Below are positions 1,382-23,340 of a DNA stretch of 35,836 nucleotides, piece after piece; within the stretch, counting starts at the first letter, position 1, and every line of letters begins with the position of its first letter. The position numbers were made by a program, and so were the translations under genes. This stretch comes from a virus, in IMG/VR virus record IMGVR_UViG_3300046003_007347, positions 1 through 35,836 of that record. One strand, 5' to 3'. Below the pieces are notes generated by a model. It ran no database searches. It worked only from the letters and a program-made list of their open reading frames with translations, and had not been told where the DNA came from.

Positions 1382-1723
1382 TTATTCGTATGTTAAATTA
1401 ATAATAACATCCCCAGCACCTATAGATCCAATATTATCATCAGCAGCACCACTTGTGATAGCAATAGCTATACCTAGTTCAAACCCAACACCTTTAAAAA
1501 AAGGAATGGCAACTCCTGCTCCTTGTGTATTTGCAGGAATTGGAATAGTCATTTTAGGAATATCTGTTCCTACTATTGGTGCTGTTGATTTTTCGTATAG
1601 CTTCAAATATCTTACATCCGATGTTAAACCAATTGCAATTATTGTATTTAAAAGTCCTCCACCAATTTTTACTGTATTTGCATTTGTTGAAGCAGTTGAT
1701 ATAAGTTTGTAAGTTTTTATCAT
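1382..1723 (-). CDS. Small virion-type hypothetical protein
   Basis: A 113-residue protein that resembles, from memory, a short protein family common in tailed phage structural regions. The family pattern is an N-terminal strand with STASTNANTVKIG, then RYLKLYEKSTAPIVGTD, then PIPANTQGAGVAIPF, and a Gly/Ala-rich end. The composition (many Thr, Ile, Gly, no Cys) suggests a compact beta protein, perhaps a decoration or fibre-associated protein. There is no signal peptide or membrane segment. It directly follows the endolysin: its ATG shares base 1723 with the stop of that gene. It directly precedes the beta-helix protein, so the two may work together on the virion surface. The frame on the opposite strand over the same bases is a shadow. 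Function is not established. Confidence 0.65.
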   Translation of the reverse strand: MIKTYKLISTASTNANTVKIGGGLLNTIIAIGLTSDVRYLKLYEKSTAPIVGTDIPKMTIPIPANTQGAGVAIPFFKGVGFELGIAIAITSGAADDNIGSIGAGDVIINLTYE

Positions 1724-2424
1724 TATTTTAATTTTAGAATTTGTCCTATCTTAATATTAGAGGAGATAAGTTTATTTAATAATATTATATCTGCTATAGT
1801 TATATTATTATTTTTTGCTATTTTAGTTAAAGTATCTCCCTTTTGAACTATATATACTGATTCTATATTTTCTTTAGAATATTCGTATAATATTTTAGCT
1901 ATATTTTCAGCTAATATGTTTTTATTTTTTTGATATTTAATCATATCTGATTCATTAGATATAAAACATACTTCTATAAGTATATTTTCTCCGTTTAATC
2001 TCATCCATCCTAATCTACCATGATGTGATTCTGCTTCTGTTCTTACTCCATTATTTCCTCTCTTAACTATATTTAATGTTTCAGATATAGTTGTAGCTAT
2101 ATTTCCGGCTAATTTTTTTTCAAAGGATGTATATGAAGAAGGTATTAATACTTCAGTACCTGTAGCTTTTGGAGTAGCTGCGTTCCAATGTATATCTAAT
2201 ACAATTGAATTAGATGAAGTTAAATTTTTAAATTTAATAATGGTTTCAGATAAAATATTTTGATTTTCATCAATAATAGGAGTTATTCCTAATTTTTTTA
2301 AGTTTGAAACAATAAGATCTCTTAATTCAACAGCTAATTCTCCCTCAATATATCCATTTCCAACTGCACCTCTATCTTTACCAACTTTATTACTATGTCC
2401 TGCTCCTATAAATACTTTACGCAT
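1723..2424 (-). CDS. Endolysin: N-acetylmuramoyl-L-alanine amidase with C-terminal LysM
   Basis: A 233-residue predicted lysis enzyme that cuts the amide bond between MurNAc and the stem peptide. Residues 1-182 form an Amidase_3 fold. The putative zinc ligands are His10 (in FIGAGH), Glu27 or Glu29 (IEGE) and His79 (LDIHWNA), and the catalytic Glu is probably Glu151 in LIEVCFISN. Residues 190-233 form one LysM peptidoglycan-binding repeat starting YIVQKGDTLTKIA. There is no signal peptide, so release probably depends on a holin. The upstream gene, a small two-helix membrane protein, overlaps it by 8 bases, consistent with a holin-endolysin pair. The cassette lies downstream of the nrdA terminator and a candidate late promoter. 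Confidence 0.92.
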   Translation of the reverse strand: MRKVFIGAGHSNKVGKDRGAVGNGYIEGELAVELRDLIVSNLKKLGITPIIDENQNILSETIIKFKNLTSSNSIVLDIHWNAATPKATGTEVLIPSSYTSFEKKLAGNIATTISETLNIVKRGNNGVRTEAESHHGRLGWMRLNGENILIEVCFISNESDMIKYQKNKNILAENIAKILYEYSKENIESVYIVQKGDTLTKIAKNNNITIADIILLNKLISSNIKIGQILKLK

Positions 2425-6421: not shown

Positions 6422-7795
6422 TTATTCAAATTTGAAGTTTTGCAATTTTTCAACTAAAAATTCTTTATCTTGTTTTGTTACTTCATTAAATGAAGATTTT
6501 TGGGGTTGTGGTTTGGATTTATAATCTTCCTCTTCATCATATTCACCAGTAATAGTAAAATTACCCATATCAATATCAATATCTACATTCCAAGTCATTC
6601 CATCCCCACCATATCTATTTTTCATAATATGCCATCTTCCAGTACCATTAACTTTATCCTTTTTCAAACGTGATAAAGACATACTAAAATCAACAACCAT
6701 CAATTTATCATATGAACCTGCTGATTTATCCCCTTCTACAACATCATCTTTTGCACCAGACCTATTAACTTGAGATACAGACCAAACAGGTTTTTGAAGT
6801 TTTTTAGCTAAACCTTTAGTTCCATAATATAAATCATCAATTTCAGCTTTTGCATCTTTTCTTCGGGTTGGAGGTTTTAATAAATCGACATAATCAATAA
6901 TAATTAAATCTGCATCAAATCCCATATCTTTACATTTTTGAATATGAGATTCAATAGTAGTTAAAGATGCATTTTTAGGAGCATATTCTCGTATAATTAA
7001 ATTATTTTGGAGTGTTTCCATTTTTAATTTAACAATATCAATATTTTCCTTCAATTGCCCCATAGGAATTTGAGTTAAAAAGGCATCATATCTTTTTCCA
7101 ACATAATCTTCACCTAATTCAAGAGTATAATGTATTACTTTATAACCAAGAGACATAGCTAATCCTCCAAGAGCAACTAAACTCCAAGATTTTCCTCCAC
7201 CAGGTCCTCCATATAATAATCCAAAATCTCCACTTCCTAAACCACCATCTAATAATTTATTTATTTCAGGCCAGGGTGTTGGTATTACATTTCTGTTTTC
7301 TTCTCTATATCTATGTTCAACATCTTTTTGATATTCATGTCCTATATTTTTGTCTTGACCTGCTTTAATTGCATTTTCAATTTTATTTCTAATTTCTTCA
7401 AATTCACCCGTATTTAATAAATCTACAGATTCTAAAAGAGCTTTTTTTAGTTTTTGATTAATACAAAAATTATCGAATTCTGTTTCAACATATTCATGAT
7501 CTTCATTAATAATAGAATATACAGATTTTAATTGTTCTTTAATTGCTGTTTGTAATACTTTATTATCAATTTTTTGAGATTCAATTTTAAAAAACTCAAT
7601 AGTTGGAGTTGAATGGTATAAATCAAAATATTTCATAGTTTGTTCAACAATCCAATAATGTCCTGGATGTTGGAAATATTCTAATTCAATTACATCTCTA
7701 ATGTTAAGTAAAAATTGTCTATTTTTTAATAATGAATGAATTACTTTTATTTGAAATTCTAAACCATAGTCGCTAAGACTTTTTAAATGAGTCAT
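6422..7795 (-). CDS. Replicative DNA helicase, DnaB/T4 gp41 family
   Basis: A 457-residue hexameric 5'-3' helicase of the DnaB/gp41 superfamily. The N-terminal 160 residues form a helical domain. The RecA-like motor domain follows, with Walker A GGPGGGKS at residues 196-203, a catalytic-type Glu in HYTLELGED (about 224-230), Walker B in DLIIIDYVDLL (Asp301) and the sensor motif SQVNR at 341-345. The C-terminus is acidic and Lys/Gln-rich. It would unwind the replication fork for the phage polymerase. It sits downstream of uvsX and the RNase H-like nuclease, as part of a complete replication block. The leader AAATAAAGAAT before ATG resembles those of the two small genes at 11269 and 11524. No primase (gp61-like) gene is in the window. 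Confidence 0.93.
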   Translation of the reverse strand: MTHLKSLSDYGLEFQIKVIHSLLKNRQFLLNIRDVIELEYFQHPGHYWIVEQTMKYFDLYHSTPTIEFFKIESQKIDNKVLQTAIKEQLKSVYSIINEDHEYVETEFDNFCINQKLKKALLESVDLLNTGEFEEIRNKIENAIKAGQDKNIGHEYQKDVEHRYREENRNVIPTPWPEINKLLDGGLGSGDFGLLYGGPGGGKSWSLVALGGLAMSLGYKVIHYTLELGEDYVGKRYDAFLTQIPMGQLKENIDIVKLKMETLQNNLIIREYAPKNASLTTIESHIQKCKDMGFDADLIIIDYVDLLKPPTRRKDAKAEIDDLYYGTKGLAKKLQKPVWSVSQVNRSGAKDDVVEGDKSAGSYDKLMVVDFSMSLSRLKKDKVNGTGRWHIMKNRYGGDGMTWNVDIDIDMGNFTITGEYDEEEDYKSKPQPQKSSFNEVTKQDKEFLVEKLQNFKFE

Positions 7796-7831: not shown

Positions 7832-8848
7832 TTAAGATTCCAAAGATCCAAAAGTATCTTGTAACCAGAAATTTAAATTATTATTAATATTATTTTCTAA
7901 TCTATCTTGACCATTTAATTGAATAAATTTTGTTGGATTTAGTTTAAATGGTTTTTCATCAATAATTTTATCTAATTTCCTTTTTTCCTGTTCAGGAATA
8001 TTAGGATCAGATAAATCCATTAATTTTTCATTAATTTTTAATTGGTGTTTAAAATTATATATATTTCCATATAAAGGTTCATCATCACACATATCATAAC
8101 TTTTTTGAATTATTTCATCAAGTGTAACTTGTTTAGTCTCTGATAATTCTGGAAATAATTTATATAATTTTTTCTCACCTATTTTAGGAACTTTTGGAAC
8201 ATTATCTGATGTATCACCCAATATTATTTTTTTGTTAAGAAAATTACAAGGCCAACATTTAAATTCATCATAAACATCAATTTCAGTATAATATTTCTTT
8301 TTTATTGGAGAATACACTGTAATATTTTCATTTACCATTTGAAGGAAATCTTGATCAGCAGATACTATAATAGAATGTTCAAATTTAGGCGCTAAATAAG
8401 CGATTATATCATCGGCCTCTAATTTATCAATGACTGCTATGTTTACAGGAAGATTCTTTAGATAATCAATAAGTCTTAATAGTTGAGACTTTATTGAATC
8501 AGATTCTTCTTCAAGAGTGTCAAAAGAGGACCAATTTGTGATCCTCTTTATCTTTCTTGTTCCTTTATAATCTGAGTATAAATTCTTTTTATTAGTAATA
8601 TTTCCTTCTCCATCAAAAACTAAAATTACTCTTGTAGGTTGATGTTGTTTTATCATAAATCCTAATGAACGTAGATAACCTGTTAATCCACCAATATGAT
8701 GTCCTTGAGAATTTACTTTATTTATAACACTAAAGTTTCTTAAAAACATATTCATTGAATCTATTATAAGAACTCTATCATTTGGTTTTGATTTTAACTC
8801 TTTACTATTTTCAGTAATACTATCTAATAAATTTTTATATTTACTCAT
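7832..8848 (-). CDS. 5'-3' exonuclease / RNase H, FEN-type (T4 rnh-like)
   Basis: A 338-residue flap/5' nuclease of the PIN-like FEN family, which removes RNA primers and flaps from lagging-strand fragments. The metal-binding acidic residues are Asp30 (LIIDSMN), Asp79 (LVFDGEG), Glu144/Asp146/Asp147 (LEADDII), Asp165/Asp167 (SADQDF) and Asp212/Asp215 (LGDTSDNVP). Next comes the helix-hairpin-helix segment VPKIGEKKLYKLFPEL, which binds duplex DNA. Length is close to T4 RNase H. The start overlaps the end of uvsX by 8 bases. The C-terminal 60 residues are Asn/Leu-rich and may be the docking site for SSB or clamp, which is inference. Confidence 0.92.
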   Translation of the reverse strand: MSKYKNLLDSITENSKELKSKPNDRVLIIDSMNMFLRNFSVINKVNSQGHHIGGLTGYLRSLGFMIKQHQPTRVILVFDGEGNITNKKNLYSDYKGTRKIKRITNWSSFDTLEEESDSIKSQLLRLIDYLKNLPVNIAVIDKLEADDIIAYLAPKFEHSIIVSADQDFLQMVNENITVYSPIKKKYYTEIDVYDEFKCWPCNFLNKKIILGDTSDNVPKVPKIGEKKLYKLFPELSETKQVTLDEIIQKSYDMCDDEPLYGNIYNFKHQLKINEKLMDLSDPNIPEQEKRKLDKIIDEKPFKLNPTKFIQLNGQDRLENNINNNLNFWLQDTFGSLES

Positions 8849-9896
8849 TTACAAAATCGATTTCATTTTCAACCACATTTTCTTCTGTAAAGGTAAAATC
8901 CTCAGAACCCAACATTAATCCCCATTCTTTTTTATGTTCTTTTTTATAAGCATCTTGGGAAGATGGAGTATCTTTTATAAAACCATGAGCTGTACTAATA
9001 ATAGTTCCTTTACCAGTATTCCCTGTTACGTGATTTTTATCTACTTGGATTTTAGTTTTTAATCCCCATTCAATAATTTTTTTATCTTTAGTAACATTTA
9101 ATTTTTGAGTACCATCACTTGTTATATTACCAAATGTAATTGCTAAAGAACAATCATAATACATTGAATCACCATTTTTATTTTTCATTTTTGGTTGAGA
9201 CATAGGTGTTAATGCAGGTTCAACCCAAATTTTATTTACATAAAGAGCAGTATTAGTATATGGTTGAGATTCTTTTCTCGATAATACTATTTGTTGGTTA
9301 ACAAAATTTGCAAATTGTTGAGACAATGCTCCAGCATTCCACATAGGTGAATTTGACGATTTTTCCAAACTCATTCTACTTGGAATAGACCCAATAGAAT
9401 CCCATAAAAATAACAAGTCATGAGGGAGATTACCTTTTTTCTGCTCATTAATCATATCCATAATAAACTCGGCAACATCTTCAATACATTTTAACCTTTC
9501 AGAATCAACATAAATAAAAAAACCGTCATATGATATATTACCATCAACATCAATATTTTTACCTAAATCAAATCCCATAGTTTCCCAATGTTCCCAACTA
9601 TGTTTCATTTCCGTAATAATAATTACAGGAAGAATTCCATCTTTTTGTGCTTGGATAGCTTGTTCAATAAGTAAAGTTGTTTTACCAGTGTTACTTCTTC
9701 CTCTAATTAAAGTAGTATGTCCTTTTGGAACACCAGGTATTTGTAATACTTCTTTGATTGGTTCTGAAAAGGCAATCCACTCTTGTTTTTTGTAATTTGA
9801 ATTACTTTGTCCTAGATTTTTTCCGTTTTTGAATTTATCTAGACTGAATGTGGAGTTTATTTTTTTAGATACATCTCCACTTAGACTTTTTGCCAT
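8841..9896 (-). CDS. uvsX: RecA/UvsX-family recombinase
   Basis: A 351-residue strand-exchange ATPase acting in recombination-dependent replication and repair. Walker A is GRSNTGKT at residues 66-73. Walker B is LLFLWDSIGS with Asp166. The stretch ITEMKHSWEHWETMGFD corresponds to the region after strand 2 in UvsX/RecA. The C-terminus is acidic (FTEENVVENEIDF), as in many RecA-family proteins, where it tunes DNA binding. It is flanked by gp32-like SSB and the RNase H-like nuclease, matching the T4 functional group. I cannot fully exclude another phage RecA-fold recombinase subfamily. A terminator separates it from gp32, so it may have its own promoter, which I could not identify. Confidence 0.87.
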   Translation of the reverse strand: MAKSLSGDVSKKINSTFSLDKFKNGKNLGQSNSNYKKQEWIAFSEPIKEVLQIPGVPKGHTTLIRGRSNTGKTTLLIEQAIQAQKDGILPVIIITEMKHSWEHWETMGFDLGKNIDVDGNISYDGFFIYVDSERLKCIEDVAEFIMDMINEQKKGNLPHDLLFLWDSIGSIPSRMSLEKSSNSPMWNAGALSQQFANFVNQQIVLSRKESQPYTNTALYVNKIWVEPALTPMSQPKMKNKNGDSMYYDCSLAITFGNITSDGTQKLNVTKDKKIIEWGLKTKIQVDKNHVTGNTGKGTIISTAHGFIKDTPSSQDAYKKEHKKEWGLMLGSEDFTFTEENVVENEIDFVNE

Positions 9897-9944: not shown

Positions 9945-10733
9945 TTATTTTTCTCCAAAAATTTCTTCAAACTCACTTTCAGTTATTACTTCTTTTGGTT
10001 TGGATTTTGGTGTAGAAACCGAAGATGTAGTATCAAAAGCTTTGTTTGCTTCTGTAGTTGTTGTTTCTTCTGGTGTTTCAGGGTTTAACCATTTTTCAAG
10101 GAATGTTTTAATTTCATCAAAACTATATTTTTTATAGTTTGAAATTAAATCTGGTTGTTCATTTAACCATTTTTCGATTAAATCTGCATCTTTAGATGCT
10201 GGTGAGGATTTCATTGTTGGTCTTACAGATGTTTCTGTATAGTTAGCCCCTTGGGTAACATCAACTTTAATATCTCTACCTTCACTTACATCAGTAAAAT
10301 CTAAAACTTCTTCATCAGCCGCAAGTGCTAATAATTCTTGGTAAACATTTTTACCAAATTCATACCATCTTGGTCCTTTAGCTTCATCATTTCTATCCAC
10401 AACAAGAGCAAAAGTTCTCATTTTTGGTTCTAGTTTTTTAGCTAATTTCCAATCTTCAGGATCTTTAGATTTTTTTAATGTTTTGGCAAATTCTACAATT
10501 GGGTCTTTTTCTCCATAAGAAATTGGAGATAACATTACTTTAGGTCCAACACCATAATGGAAATAAAGTTCCACAAATGGATTTTCTGCATTTTCCTTTA
10601 AAGGTACAAAACGTACTAAATGTTTACCGATTGCTGGTTTAAAAAACGTAACAGATCTGTCTACCTTTTCGAATTTTTTTGATTTTGGCGCTGTTAATTC
10701 ATCAAGCCTCGCTTGAATTTTTGAAATGTCCAT
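9945..10733 (-). CDS. Single-stranded DNA-binding protein, T4 gp32-like
   Basis: A 262-residue SSB. It has an N-terminal basic cooperativity segment (KSKKFEKVDRSVTFFKP), a central OB-type core (HLVRFVPLKENAENPF, then RTFALVVDRNDEAKGPRWYEFG, then GRDIKVDVTQG), a Thr/Ser/Pro linker (about residues 218-245) and an acidic tip (ESEFEEIFGEK), as used by gp32 to recruit replication partners. The protein contains no cysteine, so it cannot form the zinc site of T4 gp32, which is unusual for a close relative. The gene has its own terminator, and its 90-base leader holds two inverted repeats that may serve regulation. Confidence 0.9.
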   Translation of the reverse strand: MDISKIQARLDELTAPKSKKFEKVDRSVTFFKPAIGKHLVRFVPLKENAENPFVELYFHYGVGPKVMLSPISYGEKDPIVEFAKTLKKSKDPEDWKLAKKLEPKMRTFALVVDRNDEAKGPRWYEFGKNVYQELLALAADEEVLDFTDVSEGRDIKVDVTQGANYTETSVRPTMKSSPASKDADLIEKWLNEQPDLISNYKKYSFDEIKTFLEKWLNPETPEETTTTEANKAFDTTSSVSTPKSKPKEVITESEFEEIFGEK

Positions 10734-10822: not shown

Positions 10823-11269
10823 TTATAAATTTATTATTGAATAGATTTTTGTAGGATATTTATTTAATAATCCATCAGATACTAATAGAATTGAATTTTT
10901 ATAATCACTCCATTCGATAGGATACATTGAATCCATTTTTCCAAAATTTAATTCTCTAATTAAAGCATTTAAAGAATTAATGGAATATAAGGTATTTGAT
11001 TCTTTTTTTCTATGAAGTAAAATTGTATTAGGAAGTACTTTATCTGAAATATTAAATGAGTCAACATTATATGTAGCTATAAGTTCATCTTTTCCTTCAA
11101 TTTTAAGAATAAAAATTTTATTATGTAATATAGTATATCTTCTTGTTATTTCTGCAATTGTTTGTTCTAATTCTTCTTCGTTGAAGAATGTTGTAAAAAG
11201 TTTACTCATTGTATGTGATGTAATATCGTAATTATCACATATAAATATATCATTTTGATGTAAATTCAT
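10823..11269 (-). CDS. Conserved-looking hypothetical protein in replication block
   Basis: A 148-residue soluble protein, function not recognised. From residue 20 on it has a mixed alpha/beta pattern: a helical stretch NEEELEQTIAEITRRYTIL, a beta pair KIFILKIEGKDELIATYNVD, then NTILLHRKKESNTLYSINSL, then LNALIRELNFGKMD and a last strand region NSILLVSDG. No catalytic motif or metal-binding set stands out. It is 9 bases downstream of the 81-residue gene, shares the leader AAATAAAGACT with it, and is followed by the gp32 leader. This suggests the pair and the polymerase-like gene form a unit. Low sequence complexity is absent and codon use matches its neighbours, so it is a real gene. Confidence 0.75.
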   Translation of the reverse strand: MNLHQNDIFICDNYDITSHTMSKLFTTFFNEEELEQTIAEITRRYTILHNKIFILKIEGKDELIATYNVDSFNISDKVLPNTILLHRKKESNTLYSINSLNALIRELNFGKMDSMYPIEWSDYKNSILLVSDGLLNKYPTKIYSIINL

Positions 11270-11278
11270 AGTCTTTAT

Positions 11279-11524
11279 TTATAATATTGTTGGTATTTCT
11301 CCTTTTTCATAAGCCTCCATACTAATAGTATGAACTCTCCTATTAAATTCTTCAGTTAAATCATCCACCATCTTTCCATCCATAGGTTGAATAGCATGTA
11401 TTTCTACTTTAATCCCTTTTCTAATTCCCTCATAAAAAGATTTTTGGAGGTGTTTTTTAAAATATTCTTTAGAATACCAAAATTCTTCAACACCATCTTT
11501 TTCCCTTATTAATATATCAGCCAT
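11279..11524 (-). CDS. Small hypothetical protein in replication block
   Basis: An 81-residue protein, function not recognised. It has an N-terminal strand (MADILIREKDGVEEFWYS), an amphipathic basic helix (EYFKKHLQKSFYEGIRKGI), a short strand (KVEIHAI) and a C-terminal helix (MVDDLTEEFNRRVHTISMEAY). There is no Cys and no membrane segment. It lies 5 bases after the polymerase-like gene and 9 bases before the 148-residue gene. Its leader AAATAAAGACT is the same as that of the 148-residue gene. Position suggests an accessory replication or regulatory role, but nothing in the sequence proves it. Confidence 0.7.
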   Translation of the reverse strand: MADILIREKDGVEEFWYSKEYFKKHLQKSFYEGIRKGIKVEIHAIQPMDGKMVDDLTEEFNRRVHTISMEAYEKGEIPTIL

Positions 11525-11529
11525 AGTCT

Positions 11530-12873
11530 TTATTTTAATTTAATTAAATTGTTATAATTTTTACCATATGAAACAGAAGATTGGAAACCAAATTCTTCTA
11601 TTATATTTTTTATTTCTTTTAAGATCTGTTTATCGTCCTCACTACTATAATCAATTAACATAGCATCATAGGAATATAATATACATTTACTTTTTTTATT
11701 ATCCAAATATTTTAAAAGGGAAGATAAAGTTTTTACATTATAATATGTTTCTGCTGATTGGATTATGTAATTATATACTTTTTGAGGTGTTGAGTTTTGG
11801 ATTTCTTTTAATAGTAGTTTTCTTCCACCGATAAGTTCAACAAATCCTGTTTTTTGTATTTCTTCCCATAAATTTTTAATATATTCCTCTAATTTGGACC
11901 AAAAGGGAACGTGTTTATATTGAGGGAAAACGCCTCCATTCATCATTTTAAATGAAAGTTGTTTTGACTTTTTATATTCTTCTTCTGTTAATTCTGTTTT
12001 ATTAAAATAAAATTTCCCTAATTCAGTATGAATATCTCCTTTAGGTAATTCAAAATTAATTAATTTAGCACTTAAATATAGATGATATGCTCTAAAATCA
12101 TATTCAAATAAATAATCTTCTTTTGGAATTATAAATTCTCTTGTGTTATCATTTTTATTTAAAGCAGCAAAATTTACTCCATTAAATGAGTTAGAAGGAC
12201 GGGTTGTAAAATTATATAAATTATATTTTGAATATATTTTATTATCTTTTATTGAAAATTTAGGATATTTTAGTTGAAAATGTTGATTAAAAACATCGTT
12301 ATTTAATGATATTCCCTGTTTTTCAATACAATACATGACCCACACATATTCATTATTATAAAACGTGTTAATTAATTGATTTCCAATATAATCTTGAATA
12401 TAATAATAGATAGATTCTTGTTCTTCATAATGTTTAGTAATTGGAATAAAAGAATTTAATTTAATATGAGATTTAAAAGAACCTTCAATATAATTAGCTA
12501 CAGTTTGTTTATAATCAGGTATTTCTAATTTAAATATAGTTTGTTCTAAATGGAGTAAATTTATATCTATAACTTTATTATTTTTAAATTCTTCCCCTAA
12601 AAAATATAATAATTCCTTTTTATCTAAACAATAAATTTGTTTATGTTTTAATAAAAATTCCTTTATTAAATTTAAATCAATATCAATACCATCATTATGA
12701 TTAATAGGAAACATAAACCCCTTACTATCTCCTTCAGCTCTATAATATATAAGTGAAATTGAGGATAATATGGGGTGATAATTATGGTTTAGAGGTATTA
12801 CATTAATATAACAAGATTTATTATAGGATAATTTATTTAATTGTTCTTCGTTTTCTATAATCCAAAATGACAT
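11530..12873 (-). CDS. Divergent family A DNA polymerase-like protein
   Basis: A 447-residue protein whose C-terminal half matches the order of family A polymerase motifs. TTRPSNSFNGVNFAAL (223-238) resembles the T-x-R-L-S-S...N-L-Q-N region. Motif A is EYDFRAYHLYLSAKL with Asp259. GDIHTELGKF is followed by motif B KKSKQLSFKMMNGG with Lys304 and Phe308. IGGRKLLL and VYNYIIQSAETYY resemble the later conserved helices. Motif C is LYSYDAMLI with Asp403. Both catalytic Asp are kept, but the motif A Glu is His264, the motif B Tyr is Asn, and the motif C His-Asp-Glu reads Tyr-Asp-Ala. Residues 1-170 occupy the place of the exonuclease domain but lack a clear DxE motif. It is much shorter than PolI (about 930) or T7 polymerase (about 700). 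It lies upstream of SSB, recombinase and helicase genes. Confidence 0.75.
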   Translation of the reverse strand: MSFWIIENEEQLNKLSYNKSCYINVIPLNHNYHPILSSISLIYYRAEGDSKGFMFPINHNDGIDIDLNLIKEFLLKHKQIYCLDKKELLYFLGEEFKNNKVIDINLLHLEQTIFKLEIPDYKQTVANYIEGSFKSHIKLNSFIPITKHYEEQESIYYYIQDYIGNQLINTFYNNEYVWVMYCIEKQGISLNNDVFNQHFQLKYPKFSIKDNKIYSKYNLYNFTTRPSNSFNGVNFAALNKNDNTREFIIPKEDYLFEYDFRAYHLYLSAKLINFELPKGDIHTELGKFYFNKTELTEEEYKKSKQLSFKMMNGGVFPQYKHVPFWSKLEEYIKNLWEEIQKTGFVELIGGRKLLLKEIQNSTPQKVYNYIIQSAETYYNVKTLSSLLKYLDNKKSKCILYSYDAMLIDYSSEDDKQILKEIKNIIEEFGFQSSVSYGKNYNNLIKLK

Positions 12874-13862: not shown

Positions 13863-16800
13863 TTATATTTTGGTTATATAACAATTATAATATTCATATT
13901 TTTTAGTTCTAATATCTCCAACATTATATCCAACAGCATCTAATGCTTTTTCAAAATAATTAGAATCATATTGATTTGCTTTAACTCTATCTTTAAAATA
14001 AATAGCAGCTATCTTTGCACCTATTATAGGATCATTAACTAATTCTGGGTTGGATAAAATATTTACACCACTTAATTCGGAATATCTTTTATAGTTCCCA
14101 TATCCAGTTAATTGAATATATCCTCTTCCATAATATTTTCCTCCATCAGATATATTTCTATTTCCTACTCTAGTTGGATAATATTCTCCATATACTATAT
14201 TAAAAAATTCTTTTTTACTAATTCCTTTTTTTGTAGCTCTTTTATATTGATTTTCTGTTAGATTAGGATATATTTGTCTTAATCTTGATTCCGAATAAAT
14301 ATGATTTTCACTTTTTGGATTTAAACCAGTTTCTCCAGCAGCAATAGCTATTAAAGATGATATAGCTTGTGGGGATATTAATCCAATTTCTTTAGCTGAT
14401 TGTTTTAAATAGTTTATTGGAATATTAACTGTGGATGGAGAGAAGAATGAAGATGCTCTTCTAGTACATGTATTTGACGTTGTTGGTAATGTATATATTG
14501 GTTGAAAATCGTTAACTTTTTCTAGTTTAATTTTTGGAGTATATTCTGTTAAATCTTCTTTATCAAATCTTATATTAATGGTTTGTCCTGTTAGTTTTGT
14601 AATCCATTTATTATTTGAAAAATCTTGATTTATAGTATGTAATATAAATGCTATTTTTGGCTTACCATCCTTTGTTAAATATGAAGGAGGCAATAGATTT
14701 GATGGAATTGTAAATGCTGAGTTAGGGATTATTCCAGATAACCCATCCATACTCAAATTAAAATCTAAAGGAATTATAATAGAACCTCTGTTTGTTGGTT
14801 CTTCTTTTAATCTAAAATTAGCTAGTATTTCTCTATATGTATTATTTGAAGGTTCAATTAATGTTTGATTAATAATAAAATTAATCCCATCCCCACTAAT
14901 TATATTTTTTATATGGGTTTTTAAAGATTGTAAAGCTTCGTCATTTATGGTTTGTGTTGTAGATTCTTGATTGATTGTTGGTTCTGAAGTTAGTTTGTAT
15001 TTCATATATCTGTCTTCTAAACCCCTAGATAGATTACTTATAGCAAATGAATCTTCCCCTAATGTTGATGGATTAGCTTGAGCGGCTATTGTAATCATAC
15101 TAGCCAGATTAGAGCCTATTTTTGATTTAAAATTATAATCATATACTATACTATTTTTACCAAAAATTGGGAGTTCTGTATATTGATTAGAATCATCTGA
15201 TTCTTGGGTTGTTAATGTTCTGTTATCATCTATTATTCTAAATGATTTTGTTGAATCATCTACTAAAATTCTAAATTCATTAAAACCCCCTAAAGATCTA
15301 GATATACCAGATAAAATATTATTTAAAAATTCTGAGTATGGAACATTCCCTTTATCATCCTTCTCTCTTAGATTTCTCAAAACATCTGTAATAAAATTAA
15401 CATTTACTAATATACACATAACGTTAGCTCTTACTGTATTGTTAGTAGTAGATAAATAAGCGTTAGTAGTAGTACCAGATTTTTCTTCTGTTGTTATTTC
15501 AATTCTAACTCCATTACTTCTTTTAAAGGTTTTAGAAACTTTATTTTTATTAATTCTATCAAATAATTTATCTTCTATAACTCCTATATTAAATGGATCT
15601 TCAATACTATCTTGATTTCTTGGTATTAAACATATTTGAGGATCTAAAGATAATTGCCCTTTAAATGTTGAACAATAATTGAGAGAATCATTAAAATCAG
15701 CATATATATATGGATTTCCTTTTCCTTCTGAATTTGAATCATATATCATCCCAGTAGCAGTCATAAGTGCTAACATATTACCTAATGTTATATAGATTTG
15801 GGGTTGTAATCCGTCTATTGATGTAGAAGGGGAATTATCATTTATATTATACATAACTCCAAAAACATTGAATAATGTTTTTCTTAATATAGGTACATTA
15901 TTTAATTTATCCATATCAGATAGTATAGAATAATGGTTACCTCTCTTTGCTTTAAGGTTATTATCTTTTAAATTTCCATTTTCATCAAATTGGATGAATT
16001 CGTAAGGGCATTTAGAAAATATATTATTTAATATATTTCTATACCCTTCATCAATAACTCCATTAACCATTATTCCTTGTTCATATCCCATCTGCATATG
16101 ATATTGACTTATATCAAATAATGATCTATTAAATAATGATAAATCTCTATCACCTATTAAAGATGTTAAACTAGTTTTATCTTCTTCATTAATACCTGCA
16201 ATATCATTTTCAATTTTAGACGATAAAGAGGGTTGAATAAAATTAGTATCTTTACTTATAGCTTGATTTAATTTTAATGATTCTAAAATATCACCTGCTC
16301 CAACTAATTTTATATTACATATATATGAACCATCTTTTTGAAATTCCCATCCAAAATTAGAAACAGTACCATACATAGCATCATAGTTTCCGGAATGTAG
16401 TATTCTTCTATTTTGTATTTCTTTTATAATTTCTTCTTTAGAATAATATATAAATGGATTTATTGGGGATGGTTTTTGTAATTGATTTTGATTATCATTA
16501 TCTAAATAATAAGTATGTCCCCATTCCAATATCATAGAAAACCCTAATTTTAAATATAATGCTTCAAAAATTTCAAATTGTTCTAAATCATAACAAATAA
16601 ATTTAATATCAGCATATTGTAAAGTACCTAATTTACCAGCAGAAGATATATTAATAGATGTAATACCAGGTAATGGTTTTATTCCTTGGGGATTTAATGG
16701 GATATTACCATATAATTTATTTTCTCCAACTCCCCCTTTATTTATTATATTTCCATTAATATCTAATTCTACAGAACCTCCTTGAAGTATGTATTTTTTA

Positions 16801-17024
16801 GCTAATTCATCACCAGATTTGTTATGTTTTTTATAAATAGGGTGGTTTTGGGTTATATTAGTACCAGAAGTTAATCTTATCCAAGCATTTCTGTTATTTT
16901 GATATAATAAATAATTATTATTTCTCAATTGATGTGAATCAGATAAATATTTTTTTCTAACTTCTATTTGTTTAGCTACATATGGTTGAAATGGACTCCC
17001 AGCTATATTTGTAAATTGTTCCAT
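13863..17024 (-). CDS. Baseplate hub protein with C-terminal GH19-type lysozyme domain
   Basis: A 1053-residue protein. The first ~860 residues are a structural region rich in beta and Asn, beginning TNIAGSPFQPYVAKQIEVRK. It contains a gp27-like hub character (LQYADIKFICYDLEQFEIFE, then GFSMILEWGHTYYLD). Residues 870-1053 form a chitinase-like GH19 domain. The catalytic acid is probably Glu898 (IAAGETGLNP) and the second Glu906 (KSENHIYS). The substrate-cleft signature is YYGRGYIQLTGYGNY at about 964-978. In phages this fold usually cuts peptidoglycan, so the protein probably forms the tip that digests the cell wall at entry, as the T4 gp27-gp5 complex does with two or more polypeptides. It is encoded 5 bases after the gp53-like gene. 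Confidence 0.82.
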   Translation of the reverse strand: MEQFTNIAGSPFQPYVAKQIEVRKKYLSDSHQLRNNNYLLYQNNRNAWIRLTSGTNITQNHPIYKKHNKSGDELAKKYILQGGSVELDINGNIINKGGVGENKLYGNIPLNPQGIKPLPGITSINISSAGKLGTLQYADIKFICYDLEQFEIFEALYLKLGFSMILEWGHTYYLDNDNQNQLQKPSPINPFIYYSKEEIIKEIQNRRILHSGNYDAMYGTVSNFGWEFQKDGSYICNIKLVGAGDILESLKLNQAISKDTNFIQPSLSSKIENDIAGINEEDKTSLTSLIGDRDLSLFNRSLFDISQYHMQMGYEQGIMVNGVIDEGYRNILNNIFSKCPYEFIQFDENGNLKDNNLKAKRGNHYSILSDMDKLNNVPILRKTLFNVFGVMYNINDNSPSTSIDGLQPQIYITLGNMLALMTATGMIYDSNSEGKGNPYIYADFNDSLNYCSTFKGQLSLDPQICLIPRNQDSIEDPFNIGVIEDKLFDRINKNKVSKTFKRSNGVRIEITTEEKSGTTTNAYLSTTNNTVRANVMCILVNVNFITDVLRNLREKDDKGNVPYSEFLNNILSGISRSLGGFNEFRILVDDSTKSFRIIDDNRTLTTQESDDSNQYTELPIFGKNSIVYDYNFKSKIGSNLASMITIAAQANPSTLGEDSFAISNLSRGLEDRYMKYKLTSEPTINQESTTQTINDEALQSLKTHIKNIISGDGINFIINQTLIEPSNNTYREILANFRLKEEPTNRGSIIIPLDFNLSMDGLSGIIPNSAFTIPSNLLPPSYLTKDGKPKIAFILHTINQDFSNNKWITKLTGQTINIRFDKEDLTEYTPKIKLEKVNDFQPIYTLPTTSNTCTRRASSFFSPSTVNIPINYLKQSAKEIGLISPQAISSLIAIAAGETGLNPKSENHIYSESRLRQIYPNLTENQYKRATKKGISKKEFFNIVYGEYYPTRVGNRNISDGGKYYGRGYIQLTGYGNYKRYSELSGVNILSNPELVNDPIIGAKIAAIYFKDRVKANQYDSNYFEKALDAVGYNVGDIRTKKYEYYNCYITKI

Positions 17025-19308: not shown

Positions 19309-21634
19309 AAACTTTTCTATTTGCTATTGCAAGTGGTATTAATAATTCTTGAGAAACTTTATTCCCATCTAAATTAACAACCATACCTCTATTTATTGCT
19401 GATACTACATTATCTAATTTATTTATCATAACATCCATTTTGTTTCCTAAAGAGTTTGATAAAGTAGTTATACTACCATTATCTTTTTCTTTAAATAAAT
19501 CAGTTCCAGCTGTAATTCCATTCTTATTTCCAACAAATGTATCTTCAGAATCCATTTGTATTGAACCTTTAGGACCAGAAACTACTAATCCTCCAGAAGA
19601 ATCTATTTCTCCATCATCTATACCAATAATACTTTTCCCTGATTTTACCATAGGAGCATTTCCTAATGCTGTTGTATAACCATCCCAAGAACTAGCTGTT
19701 TTTGAATAATCAAAACTTCCCCCGGAAAAAATACTTACTATACCTTTTAATGTATCCAAAATAGCATTAACTATTACTCCAACCATTTTAAACGCAGGAG
19801 CCATTCCATCGCTAATAAAACTTATTATAGGTCCTAAAAGTGTAAATATTTCTCCAAATATATCTAATACAGGCATTAATGGTTCAGCTATTTGAGTAAA
19901 TATATCTTGAAGTTTTGACATAGTAGCTTGGAATCTTTCTTGTGCTGATGTAGATTTTAATTGATTAGATAATGTTTCGTTTCCTAATTCGTTTAAAAAT
20001 TGTGCTTCTCTTCCTTGGGCTTGAGCTAATGCTAGTTTTTCTTTTAAATCCCCAATATCTTTAGCTCCTACTTTTCTAATAGCTTCTTGTTCCATTAACA
20101 TATTAGCCATTTCTTCTCTGGACATTCCTAAAGCTTTGGCTTGAGCTTCTTGTTGGATAACATTCATTTTACCATATGTGGCAAAAGTTATATTTTGATC
20201 ATTAAGTTCTTTTGCTACTCCACCTAAATCACCCATTAACGCAGCATAACGTGCTCTTTCTAAGTTTAATTGTTTACCAGTGATTACTTCAGATTCAAAT
20301 TCAGAAGCAATAGAACTTTCAATATCTAATAATCCATTAGATATACTTTCTATTTGTTTTAATTCAAGACCTAATTTTTTGGCTTCAAATGCTGCTTTAC
20401 CTAATTCTGCTGGGTTTTTTGAGTAATTTAATAATGTAGCTTTAGATGTATTATTAATATCATTTAATAATGCTTTTTCATTAATAGCTAATTTATTTTT
20501 TATATTTTGAAGTTTAACTTGACCTAAGTAAGAAGCAGCAATATCTTTACTAGATTTATTTGTTATTAAAGATAATTTTGATAAAGTTGTGGCTGATTCA
20601 ACAGAATATCCAGCTTGTTGAGTTAATTCTGTAAAGTTAACTAACATTTCTCCACTTAACATAGTATTTGTACCCAAAGAATTACTTAAAGTCATGAAAG
20701 CTTCATTGATTTTTTGTGCATCAACAAATACATTACCTGTATTATAAGCAATAGCATTTACTTGATCATTTAAACCCCTTGCTTCATTATATGATATACC
20801 AAATTGTTTTGCTATTTCACCACTAGTTTTATCTAAACTCATCATAGCATCAACTAACATAGCTATTAATGCTAATGGACCTAATGATTTGGCTAAATTT
20901 GCTCCAAGATTTTTAGTTAAATTACCTGCTGTTTTTAAATTATTAACTAAATTAGTCCCCATTCCTCCATTATTCCCACTTTCTTGTTGAGATTTAACTA
21001 ATTCTTTGGCATATTCTCTGGTTTTTGATATAGCATCATCTAATCCAAGTTGATCTGATAGTCTTGAAAATCCTGTCTTTTTTAATATTTGCTGTAATCC
21101 ACCCGCAAGTGCATTGGTTAATCCTAATGCTTCATTTATTTTATTTTCTAATTCTAATCTTTCTTTTAAAATATTAATTAGTCTATCATTTTGTATTAAA
21201 TTATCTTCAGTAGCGTGTATTTGTTCTTGAGTTAATTCCCCAGATTTAATTGCTTCTGATAGTAAACCTTTACTTATTGTTGCTTTTTTTAATAGTTTTT
21301 CTATTTGATTTTTATCTAAAGTTAAAATTTCACTTTGCTCATTTTGTAATTGTTGAGTAATAGATACTAATTCTCTTGTAGTTTTTCTCGATTTTAATAA
21401 TTGAACGTTTGAATTAGTTAAATCATCTAAATTCGATTCTAAAATAGATTTTAAACCATTTAAATCATTATTTATTTCATTTAATTCATCCCCCCATTGA
21501 ACAAATGCTTCAGTAATTTCATTAGCATAAGATAAAGGATCATTAGACCAAAGATTATTTATTTTATAACCTAATTGATCTGCTAACTTTTGTAAATCAA
21601 GTAAATCTTTTTTAGCTTTTTCTTCTGGAGTCAT
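19307..21634 (-). CDS. Tail tape measure protein
   Basis: A 775-residue protein that fixes tail length and is ejected ahead of DNA. It is largely alpha-helical, with long heptad-like stretches at residues 1-200 (LDLQKLADQLGYKINNLW, then LLKKATISKGLLSEAIKSG) and Ala/Gln-rich helices at 440-560. There is a hydrophobic segment at about 243-263 (LGPLALIAMLVDAMM) and a second around 580-640 (PLMPVLDIFGEIFTLLGPII, then MVGVIVNAILDTLKGIVSIF), typical for membrane-active parts of tape measures. It lies directly downstream of the gp26/gp51-type pair with overlapping frames, the usual place of a tape measure gene. By the rough rule of about 1.5 angstrom per residue, the tail would be of the order of 115 nm. 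Confidence 0.88.
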   Translation of the reverse strand: MTPEEKAKKDLLDLQKLADQLGYKINNLWSNDPLSYANEITEAFVQWGDELNEINNDLNGLKSILESNLDDLTNSNVQLLKSRKTTRELVSITQQLQNEQSEILTLDKNQIEKLLKKATISKGLLSEAIKSGELTQEQIHATEDNLIQNDRLINILKERLELENKINEALGLTNALAGGLQQILKKTGFSRLSDQLGLDDAISKTREYAKELVKSQQESGNNGGMGTNLVNNLKTAGNLTKNLGANLAKSLGPLALIAMLVDAMMSLDKTSGEIAKQFGISYNEARGLNDQVNAIAYNTGNVFVDAQKINEAFMTLSNSLGTNTMLSGEMLVNFTELTQQAGYSVESATTLSKLSLITNKSSKDIAASYLGQVKLQNIKNKLAINEKALLNDINNTSKATLLNYSKNPAELGKAAFEAKKLGLELKQIESISNGLLDIESSIASEFESEVITGKQLNLERARYAALMGDLGGVAKELNDQNITFATYGKMNVIQQEAQAKALGMSREEMANMLMEQEAIRKVGAKDIGDLKEKLALAQAQGREAQFLNELGNETLSNQLKSTSAQERFQATMSKLQDIFTQIAEPLMPVLDIFGEIFTLLGPIISFISDGMAPAFKMVGVIVNAILDTLKGIVSIFSGGSFDYSKTASSWDGYTTALGNAPMVKSGKSIIGIDDGEIDSSGGLVVSGPKGSIQMDSEDTFVGNKNGITAGTDLFKEKDNGSITTLSNSLGNKMDVMINKLDNVVSAINRGMVVNLDGNKVSQELLIPLAIANRKV

Positions 21635-21648
21635 ATTTTATTATTTTA

Positions 21649-21658
21649 TATAAATATT
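21649..21658 (-). promoter_or_regulatory. Candidate late promoter of the tape measure gene
   Basis: AATATTTATATAAAAT in the gene direction, 14 bases before the tape measure ATG, directly after the hairpin that ends the upstream gene. If the motif is a -10 type element, the 5' untranslated leader would be shorter than 10 bases, so the tape measure mRNA would be nearly leaderless. Confidence 0.5.
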
Positions 21659-21685
21659 AAAGGTCCCTATTTTTTAGAGACCTTT
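21659..21685 (-). terminator. Hairpin terminator overlapping the end of the gp51-like ORF
   Basis: An 11-bp stem (AAAGGTCTCTA/TAGGGACCTTT, one G-U pair) with an A5 loop. It covers the last codons and the TAG stop of the 105-residue ORF. The following bases TTTAATATTTATA give a poor U-tract and coincide with a candidate promoter. Termination may therefore be partial. Confidence 0.55.
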
Positions 21686-21984
21686 GAATTATATTGATTG
21701 ATGGATGATGGTGGTTTAGATATATTAGATACTTTTGTTGTGTTAGTAACTATATTATTTTGTTCTTCAATAGCTTCATTCTTTTTTCTATATCTTTCCT
21801 CTATTTTTTTATATGTAAAATTTCTTAACCAGATAGGAAAATTATAAACTGTAGCCCAATCATATCCTTGACCATATGTAACTATTTCATCAATTTGAGA
21901 AAATAATTCTACTCTATATTGTTGATTCAGGCCAAAAAAAGTTAAGATTAATTGGTATACGGATGCCCTCCACGTCATCCTCAT
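21667..21984 (-). CDS. gp51-like / tail assembly chaperone second frame
   Basis: 105 codons can be read from ATG 21984, but the frame is open only from 21996 and overlaps the preceding gene by 71 bases in another frame. The sequence (FGLNQQYRVELFSQIDEIVT, then WATVYNFPIWLRNFTYKKIE) recalls the short gp51-type proteins encoded next to gp26 in T4-like phages, with a Lys/Glu/Asn-rich disordered tail. It is more likely expressed as a C-terminal extension of the upstream protein by frameshifting at the U7 tract than from its own ATG, which has no A-rich leader. The tape measure gene follows immediately, so the product may chaperone tape measure assembly. Confidence 0.75.
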   Translation of the reverse strand: MRMTWRASVYQLILTFFGLNQQYRVELFSQIDEIVTYGQGYDWATVYNFPIWLRNFTYKKIEERYRKKNEAIEEQNNIVTNTTKVSNISKPPSSINQYNSKVSKK

Positions 21985-21996
21985 TTTCCTTATATA
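21914..21996 (-). other. Probable programmed frameshift site (U7 tract)
   Basis: Within the overlap of the two frames the message reads AAC TTT TTT TGG CCT in the first frame; the U7 tract is at 21934-21940. Slipping forward one base after the second UUU re-pairs tRNA-Phe perfectly and continues GGC CTG AAT in the second frame, as would a -2 slip. A -1 slip would not enter that frame. The fused product would be about 337 residues: 249 from the first ORF and 88 from the second. The layout immediately before a tape measure gene is that of the G/GT chaperone pair of long-tailed phages. Confidence 0.65.
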
Positions 21997-22681
21997 TTAA
22001 GTCAACACCTGGTGAGACTCTCTTTATTTCATTTCTTAATTCTCTACTATCAATAGCTAACAATCCTTTATCAACAAATTCACGAATAGTTTTAGTATCT
22101 CTTTCACCTTCTACTGATGTTATGATGTATTTTAAACGTGTAGATAATTCTGGTTTTGGTTTGTTTGGAAATAATTTATTTAATCCTTCAATTTCTTTTC
22201 GGATTTTTTTCTCATCTCCATGTGTTAATAATTTGAATGTTATATTAGTTCCTGTATTAGGTAAGGTAAAGGTAAATTCGTTAGTTTTATCTTCATTTAA
22301 ATCTTTTTCATTAATTAATTTATCTTTTAATTTAGATAAATCTACTATCTTATCAACGTAATTCCCATTCTCATTAATAGCTTTAATTTTATAATCTTTT
22401 CCATATCCTAAAATACGAGCAGCTATCAATAAAGCATCTTTATCTCCTTGAAGTAAATCATCTACATTAATTTTAGTAATTAATAATGATTCAATTAATT
22501 TATCATAAACAGTACCATTAGCTATATAATTTTGGTTTGTTAAAATATCTTCCTCCAAAGCAGTCATATATTTCATTTCAACTTTACCTGATGATAATGG
22601 ATTGTCTTTTGGATATAGAAGACCTTGAGAAGGTAATTCTATTGTTTCTGTTGGTAGTTTAAATTTTGGTTCTTGACTCAT
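21914..22681 (-). CDS. Baseplate hub subunit, gp26-like / tail assembly chaperone first frame
   Basis: A 255-residue protein. It starts KFKLPTETIELPSQGLLYPK and continues SGKVEMKYMTALEEDILTNQ, a strongly conserved opening of gp26-type proteins in T4-like phages. The rest is mixed alpha/beta with Lys/Glu-rich helices and a late segment KYIITSVEGERDTKTIREFV. It ends PINLNFFWPESTI in its own frame, but the U7 tract 7 codons earlier allows a switch into the following frame. gp26 is known as a hub assembly factor in T4. Here position before the tape measure suggests a chaperone function. The gene is preceded by a terminator and a candidate late promoter. Confidence 0.82.
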   Translation of the reverse strand: MSQEPKFKLPTETIELPSQGLLYPKDNPLSSGKVEMKYMTALEEDILTNQNYIANGTVYDKLIESLLITKINVDDLLQGDKDALLIAARILGYGKDYKIKAINENGNYVDKIVDLSKLKDKLINEKDLNEDKTNEFTFTLPNTGTNITFKLLTHGDEKKIRKEIEGLNKLFPNKPKPELSTRLKYIITSVEGERDTKTIREFVDKGLLAIDSRELRNEIKRVSPGVDLIYKENEDDVEGIRIPINLNFFWPESTI

Positions 22682-22701
22682 AATGTTATTTATTGTTTAT
22701 A

Positions 22702-22711
22702 TATAAATATA
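22702..22711 (-). promoter_or_regulatory. Candidate late promoter of the gp26-like gene
   Basis: TATATTTATATATAAAC in the gene direction, 20 bases before the ATG at 22681 and immediately behind the U-tract of the tail tube terminator. This forms a compact terminator-promoter junction like the one at 23294-23335. Confidence 0.5.
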
Positions 22712-22713
22712 TA

Positions 22714-22748
22714 ATAAAAAGAAAAGACTCAACATTTCTGTTAAGTCT
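22714..22748 (-). terminator. Rho-independent terminator after the tail tube gene
   Basis: A 10-bp stem AGACTTAACA/TGTTGAGTCT (one G-U pair) with a GAAA tetraloop is followed by TTTCTTTTTATTA in the gene direction. It lies 22 bases after the stop of the tail tube gene. Confidence 0.88.
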
Positions 22749-22770
22749 CTTTAAAATATATAAGTATATT

Positions 22771-23259
22771 TTAGTAATTTAAAATACAATAATCCATAGC
22801 TAAAGTTAATTGGATTTCGTTTGCTGTATCTCCACTTGCCCAATCGAAATCACCAAAATTTGCTGTTTTAACAAATGCACCTTTAATAATCCATTCCGAT
22901 ACTACATCTCCTACTGGTCCTAGGAAATTTAAAACAATATCTTTTTTATAAAAATCTGAATAACCATCTCTACCTGTTACTGATTCATGAGCTAAACGAG
23001 CCCACTCCATAGTTGCTTGTGCTCCAGAAGGTGCGATGGGGTTGTATAAAGATATATTCATATCATTCCAATTAACTTTACCTTTAATTTTACGGTAAAC
23101 ATTAATATGGTCTAATTTAATTTCACCAGCATCAAATGATGGTGCAGTTACTTTTTTAATTAAATATGATGGAATACCATCTATATACATAATATGACGA
23201 TTAGCTACGATAGGTTCGAAAGCAGTAAACATCATCTCGTTGGTTGAAAGAACAGCCAT
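22771..23259 (-). CDS. Tail tube protein, gp19-like
   Basis: A 162-residue major tube subunit that stacks in hexamers inside the contractile sheath. It has the beta-sandwich layout of gp19/Hcp-type proteins: an N-terminal arm (STNEMMFTAFEPIVANRHIM), then strands IDGIPSYLIKKVTAPSF, then LDHINVYRKIKGKVNWNDMN, and a C-terminal pair (WIIKGAFVKTANFGDFDWAS, then IQLTLAMDYCILNY). Length equals that of T4 gp19 (about 163). It is encoded directly after the sheath and flanked by terminators on both sides, so it forms its own transcription unit, consistent with the high copy number needed. Confidence 0.93.
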   Translation of the reverse strand: MAVLSTNEMMFTAFEPIVANRHIMYIDGIPSYLIKKVTAPSFDAGEIKLDHINVYRKIKGKVNWNDMNISLYNPIAPSGAQATMEWARLAHESVTGRDGYSDFYKKDIVLNFLGPVGDVVSEWIIKGAFVKTANFGDFDWASGDTANEIQLTLAMDYCILNY

Positions 23260-23293
23260 ATATTTTGTTGTTTTTTAATTTTGTTATTATAAT

Positions 23294-23304
23294 AATAAAT
23301 ATAT
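23294..23304 (-). promoter_or_regulatory. Candidate late promoter of the tail tube gene (variant)
   Basis: TATATATTTATTAT in the gene direction, a variant of the recurrent motif with the last A of the core changed. It lies 34-35 bases before the tail tube ATG and directly follows the U-tract of the sheath terminator. The longer distance and imperfect match lower confidence, but the isolated position of the gene between two terminators requires a promoter here. Confidence 0.42.
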
Positions 23305-23335
23305 AGAGAAAAAAAAGACCTCGATAAGAGGTCTT
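23305..23335 (-). terminator. Rho-independent terminator after the sheath gene
   Basis: A perfect 8-bp stem AAGACCTC/GAGGTCTT with a 5-base loop is followed by TTTTCTC, running through eight consecutive T if the stem end is counted. It starts 5 bases past the sheath stop codon. Confidence 0.9.
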
Positions 23336-23340
23336 AATTT

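Follow-up and report, generated by a model that had tools for sequence, protein, structure and literature searches.

A compact family A DNA polymerase relative with a rebuilt active site heads a conserved replication block in T4-like phages

What does a compact relative of family A DNA polymerases do at the head of a T4-like replication block, and does it stand in for the gp43-type replicase? The stretch of DNA analysed here (the window) is a linear virus record of 35.8 kb with 28% G+C that encodes a T4-type Gp23 capsid protein, PhoH, and tail sheath and gp19-like tail tube proteins. The open reading frame for the mini-polymerase occupies exactly 11530–12873, as first annotated; we add that it lies on the minus strand, where it runs for 447 residues from an ATG start, while on the plus strand dozens of stops close the same interval. 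Its flanking genes share the minus strand, and leftward of it the block continues with a lineage-specific 81-aa ORF (11279–11524), a conserved 148-aa protein of no assigned family (10823–11269, minus strand, as are the next four genes), a gp32-like single-strand DNA binding protein (SSB; 9945–10733), a UvsX-like recombinase (8841–9896), a flap/5'-3' exonuclease (FEN; 7832–8848) encoded by a separate gene with an 8-base overlap with that of UvsX, a DnaB-like replicative helicase (6422–7795) and the small and large subunits of ribonucleotide reductase. Near the latter lies an endolysin with Amidase_3 and LysM domains (1723–2424, minus strand), and a 1053-aa tail-region protein (13863–17024, minus strand) ends in a C-terminal glycoside hydrolase 19 domain of chitinase/lysozyme type (E=5e-7). 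In a promoter and terminator scan promoters were no commoner than in shuffled sequence.

The mini-polymerase is a relative of family A DNA polymerases. It matches the Pfam family DNA_pol_A (PF00476) with E=6e-7 and 29.2 bits, below the curated cut-off of 34.3; its homologue in Flavobacterium phage immuto reaches 42.7 bits, above that cut-off, and PF00476 is matched by 33 of 53 homologues at E<=0.01. The PHROGs match of the window protein is to a 'DNA polymerase' family (5e-7), while phmmer against PDB sequences returned a chance match only. Motifs A, B and C of the family are collinear with those of E. coli Pol I in hmmsearch and hhalign comparisons; among the single sequences compared with the family profile, E. 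coli Pol I alone aligned, and T7 gp5, immuto gp199 and RM378 p092 did not. Four close relatives (67–72% identity) were found in IMG/VR and two in genome contigs, a profile search recovered more than 500 stretches with relatives, and among cultured or assembled phages the family occurs in immuto (gp001, 36%), an uncultured 484-kb phage and Microcystis phage Mel-JY01. The family alignment holds 53 sequences with 37–73% identity to the window protein; the alignment used for AlphaFold2 was made of window, IMG/VR and genome-contig rows only. One 11-kb contig binned with a Rickettsiaceae MAG (L124) carries the mini-polymerase, the 148-aa gene, an SSB gene and a hub-protein homologue, and is probably phage DNA inside a bacterial bin.

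The predicted structure extends this relationship to nearly the whole protein. The AlphaFold2 model (pLDDT 93.2, pTM 0.91) has palm, fingers and thumb of Pol I type and matches Pol I in Foldseek at E 8e-19. Superposition on Klenow, which the initial annotation had proposed as a check, places 434 of 447 residues on 1kfd (rmsd 3.4, Z 24.6); Bst polymerase gives a VIA Z of 26.7, and Klenow-type structures in general Z of ~25–27 over ~360–434 residues, so that the predicted fold can be regarded as well supported. The Pfam E-value, the 33 family members that match PF00476, the collinear motifs and the Klenow-type structure matches together exclude chance resemblance. Pol I structures are matched from residue 1 to residue 445, with model residue 1 aligned at Klenow 328. 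The protein is therefore a shortened Klenow fragment that includes the exonuclease position, rather than the stand-alone polymerase domain originally envisaged.

This N-terminal part (approximately residues 1–165, 12379–12873 on the minus strand) takes the place of the 3'-5' exonuclease domain and has lost its catalytic acids. The D-x-E that DEDDy exonucleases (DNA_pol_A_exo1) carry on their first strand is absent, and across the 53 sequences the strand at residues 21–27 has no conserved acidic residue; within residues 1–165 acidic residues occur in at least 80% of the sequences only at positions 7, 61, 103, 150 and 153, which is not the DEDD arrangement. The earlier observation that no clear exonuclease motif is present thus holds for the residues, but the domain itself survives as a fold. 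Given this pattern, proofreading by the N-terminal domain is very unlikely, and the model suggests a vestigial exonuclease domain kept as a scaffold.

Within the polymerase part (all coordinates on the minus strand), the alignment puts the E. coli Pol I residues R668, D705, E710, H734, R754, K758 and F762 at R225 (12199–12201), D259, H264, H282, Y300, K304 and F308, and Y766, N845, Q849, H881, D882 and E883 at N312, N368, Q372, Y402, D403 and A404. Motif A spans residues 255–268 (12070–12111), motif B residues 300–314 (11932–11976) and motif C residues 399–406 (11656–11679). The residues on which the initial annotation had based its view of a divergent active site (D259, H264, K304, F308 and Y402-D403-A404) are confirmed in position by both the translation and the 53-sequence alignment. 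R225, D259, H264, K304, F308, Q372, Y402 and D403 never vary, and eight of the 13 canonical sites fall among the 41 invariant columns (hypergeometric p=2e-6). Position 404 is Ser in 47/53 and Ala in 6/53, position 300 has lost its Arg and is Tyr in 45/53, and position 312 is Tyr in 48/53 and Asn in five, the window protein among them. Both catalytic aspartates and the equivalents of K758, F762, R668 and Q849 are also kept in three outgroups at 27–37% identity. To judge from this conservation, selection on the metal site is strong. All five family A enzymes taken as reference (those of E. coli, T7 and Enterococcus phage iF6, immuto gp199 and a full-length PolA from the relative G013) retain E710, R754, K758, H881 and D882 but differ among themselves at E883; measured against these five sequences the changes at 710, 754 and 881 are a family trait. 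Throughout the 53 sequences E710 has become His and the HDE of motif C has become YD(S/A), and since membership is assigned on fold and homology rather than on E710 or HDE, the mini-polymerase is counted as a variant member, not a canonical one. Taken together, the aligned sites describe an active site that is maintained and rebuilt, not decaying.

The mini-polymerase heads a conserved block of 148-aa protein, SSB, UvsX, flap exonuclease and DnaB, and the genes after it rarely depart from this order: among loci that extend far enough, the 148-aa protein follows in 74/76, SSB in 57/58, UvsX in 49/50, FEN in 40/40 and DnaB in 34/34. The 148-aa gene mostly begins no more than ~50 bases after the mini-polymerase, the window being an exception in which the 81-aa ORF intervenes. 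Its product has an almost invariant core, H-R-K-K-x-x-N-T-L-Y-x-I-N, with no Pfam match and only stray weak matches in PHROGs. The AlphaFold2 model (pLDDT 85) has one ferredoxin-like half, and against the PDB yielded nothing above Z 7.0 or better than a Foldseek E of 0.25. The 148-aa protein is the obvious candidate partner of the mini-polymerase.

Ten relatives encode a second polymerase, of family B in seven (G001, G002, G003, G016, G017, LR756508 and Mel-JY01) and of full-length family A, ~770–777 aa, in three (immuto, G011 and G013); a MAG whose similar PolA lies on a different contig (75% to immuto gp199) was left out of this count. Searching the contigs of close relatives with PF00136 revealed the family B enzyme in G001 (180 kb), G002 (85 kb) and G003 (45 kb), and in close relatives whose gene order is the same a split gp43-type PolB lies ~24–26 kb downstream of the mini-polymerase. 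The G001 gene (L035:9235-13062) is in two halves of 617 and 301 aa, both matching the gp43-type phrog_262, and a gp44-type clamp loader gene lies a few kb away; in G017 the gp43-type PolB also forms two ORFs (21410–23514). An HNH endonuclease gene sits between the G001 halves. In G002 the ribonucleotide reductase large-subunit gene (59469–63305, L025-L026) is itself broken into two ORFs with ~1 kb of small ORFs between them, perhaps by an intron or homing endonuclease insertion. G001 further has homologues of the immuto DnaG primase and exonuclease, so that with its clamp loader these roles are already filled. Immuto carries gp199, a canonical full-length PolA of 777 aa with its own exonuclease domain.

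Neither PolB nor full-length PolA was found beside the mini-polymerase of G005, a 111-kb fragment that may be incomplete, and the remaining contigs searched are short fragments, uninformative on a second polymerase. The window, a fragment of an incomplete genome, contains no PolB. It is however syntenic with G001 and G002, with roughly 50–93% identity between most of the proteins they have in common, and this synteny makes a split PolB likely in the window's own genome. Of the two observations that the initial annotation had held against its reading, a family B polymerase elsewhere is thus found in relatives, not in the window, and a fold unlike a polymerase is contradicted by the Pol I-type model. 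With a split PolB in syntenic relatives and a 777-aa PolA in immuto, the mini-polymerase is unlikely to substitute for gp43 in this phage, contrary to what the initial annotation implied. On the mini-polymerase tree the PolA and PolB labels require at least two changes, forced by well-supported branches, although long branches make the deep position of Mel-JY01 and LR756508 uncertain. These two forced changes imply that the main polymerase has been exchanged at least once while the mini-polymerase was retained.

Our results are best accommodated, with about an even chance of being right, by a model in which the mini-polymerase is an accessory Pol I-like enzyme that lacks proofreading and fills gaps alongside a separate replicase. 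It would be a compact Klenow-fragment homologue, with the proofreading domain surviving as a scaffold only, and would elongate primers, with no proofreading, at gaps and in recombination intermediates; the separate replicase in the window's lineage would be the split gp43-type PolB. The retention of the two metal-binding Asp, the triphosphate-binding Lys and His, the O-helix Phe and the minor-groove Arg and Gln suggests that the mini-polymerase most likely still adds nucleotides, while E710H, R754Y, H881Y and E883S/A point to altered handling of the sugar or the primer end; sugar or base selection may be altered, as initially proposed. The flap exonuclease a few genes downstream would remove 5' ends, and the pair could represent the functions of bacterial Pol I spread over separate genes. 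The gene neighbourhood suggests that the likeliest task is the filling and maturing of gaps, such as Okazaki junctions and UvsX/SSB recombination intermediates, in cooperation with FEN. Against this, T4 fills its gaps with gp43 and without such an accessory enzyme.

The main rival, which we consider unlikely, is a catalytically dead pseudo-polymerase acting as a DNA-binding scaffold or as a regulator of the replicase or of recombination. Inactive polymerase homologues with such roles are known in ImuB and in the inactive half of Pol epsilon. E710, R754, H881 and E883 are important in the family A enzymes that have been studied, and their loss together could cripple dNTP addition; here all four are replaced family-wide, the exonuclease is dead, and ten genomes have another polymerase. 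However, a scaffold would have no need of both metal ligands, and both catalytic Asp remain invariant in the 53 sequences, with the equivalents of K758, F762, R668 and Q849, and are kept in the three outgroups.

If catalysis is retained, as the accessory gap-filling model holds, the changed residues are also consistent with translesion or ribonucleotide-tolerant synthesis. An error-prone polymerase acting without proofreading at damaged templates, in a role like that of actinobacterial PolA2/APEX, would fit the vestigial exonuclease and the altered O-helix and steric gate, and PolA2 has been described as an accessory group within family A whose exonuclease is vestigial (PMC12926913). We regard this role as rather improbable: its neighbours belong to general replication and recombination, not to damage response, and as the protein is shorter than Klenow the large insertions of lesion-bypass enzymes are not expected. 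A further conjecture, held just as loosely, is that the mini-polymerase is a near-universal second polymerase of Far-T4/Immutovirus-type phages whose remodelled site, with its His steric gate and Tyr-Asp-Ser motif C, performs a substrate choice or chemistry new to family A, for instance incorporation of ribonucleotides or modified nucleotides, with the 148-aa neighbour as obligate subunit. The narrower proposal that replacing the steric-gate Glu710 by His and Glu883 by Ser would let the enzyme use rNTPs, for primer-like or mixed synthesis, is more doubtful still. The first substitution is found in 53/53 and the second in 47/53; Klenow E710A accepts rNTPs better, and motif C of T7 RNA polymerase reads HDS. 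On the other hand the His side chain is not small, the HDS form of motif C is also present in the PolA of Herelleviridae, and priming is covered by a DnaG-type primase in immuto and G001. That the mini-polymerase is itself the replicative polymerase is highly improbable, for although it adjoins SSB, recombinase and helicase genes and the window lacks a family B polymerase, the window is only a 35.8-kb fragment whose syntenic relatives have a split PolB ~24–26 kb downstream and other relatives a full-length PolA.

A widespread group of aquatic T4-like phages therefore keeps two DNA polymerases, and a mini-polymerase with a consistently rebuilt family A site has outlasted a switch of replicase between families. 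To judge from its neighbours, it is probably kept for a special job such as gap filling. The survival of the rebuilt site through a replicase change amounts to a testable natural experiment that could show which active-site residues family A enzymes can do without, and makes the mini-polymerase a candidate for unusual nucleotide selection. Surveys of viral polA and automatic 'DNA polymerase family A' labels may mistake such an accessory protein for the replicase.

In the literature searched we found no reports of experiments on the mini-polymerase, and a limited search on two-polymerase phages, Far-T4 phages and RM378, whose silence is not proof of absence, gave no description of the family. 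The same arrangement is seen in Far-T4 phages, which have phoH close to the structural genes and carry queuosine genes; their description (PMC4360716) refers to a DNA polymerase in general terms. Within the same family, immuto gp001 (YP_010114413; 36% identity over 96%) has the same gene order and is annotated 'DNA polymerase family A' with its altered site unremarked, in a genome that also has the canonical PolA gp199. The mini-polymerase shares with the E. coli and Bst Klenow fragments the domain order, the fold over nearly the whole protein and the equivalents of R668, D705, H734, K758, F762, N845, Q849 and D882. It differs in its 447 residues against ~601, in the lost exonuclease residues and in E710H, R754Y, H881Y and E883S/A, and, compared with intact Pol I, in having the 5' nuclease in a separate gene rather than fused. 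RM378, a T4-related phage whose polymerase and exonuclease are encoded separately, had been cited as a family A precedent. Its p092 is of family B (PF00136, E=2e-33), gives no alignment with the mini-polymerase family and is therefore an unrelated split polymerase, and the exonuclease of RM378, p024, is of PolB type (PF03104). The PolA of Herelleviridae (Twort, K and iF6) gives the best distant cultured-phage matches after immuto, LR756508 and Mel-JY01, although its own matches are partial; its motif C reads HDS, with the Ser that most mini-polymerases also have, but it keeps E710, R754 and H881 and is much larger. Among the systems compared, the closest role-model is PolA2/APEX of Actinobacteria (PMC12926913), an accessory family A polymerase with a vestigial exonuclease beside another replicase, but bacterial and described with a clamp-binding motif.
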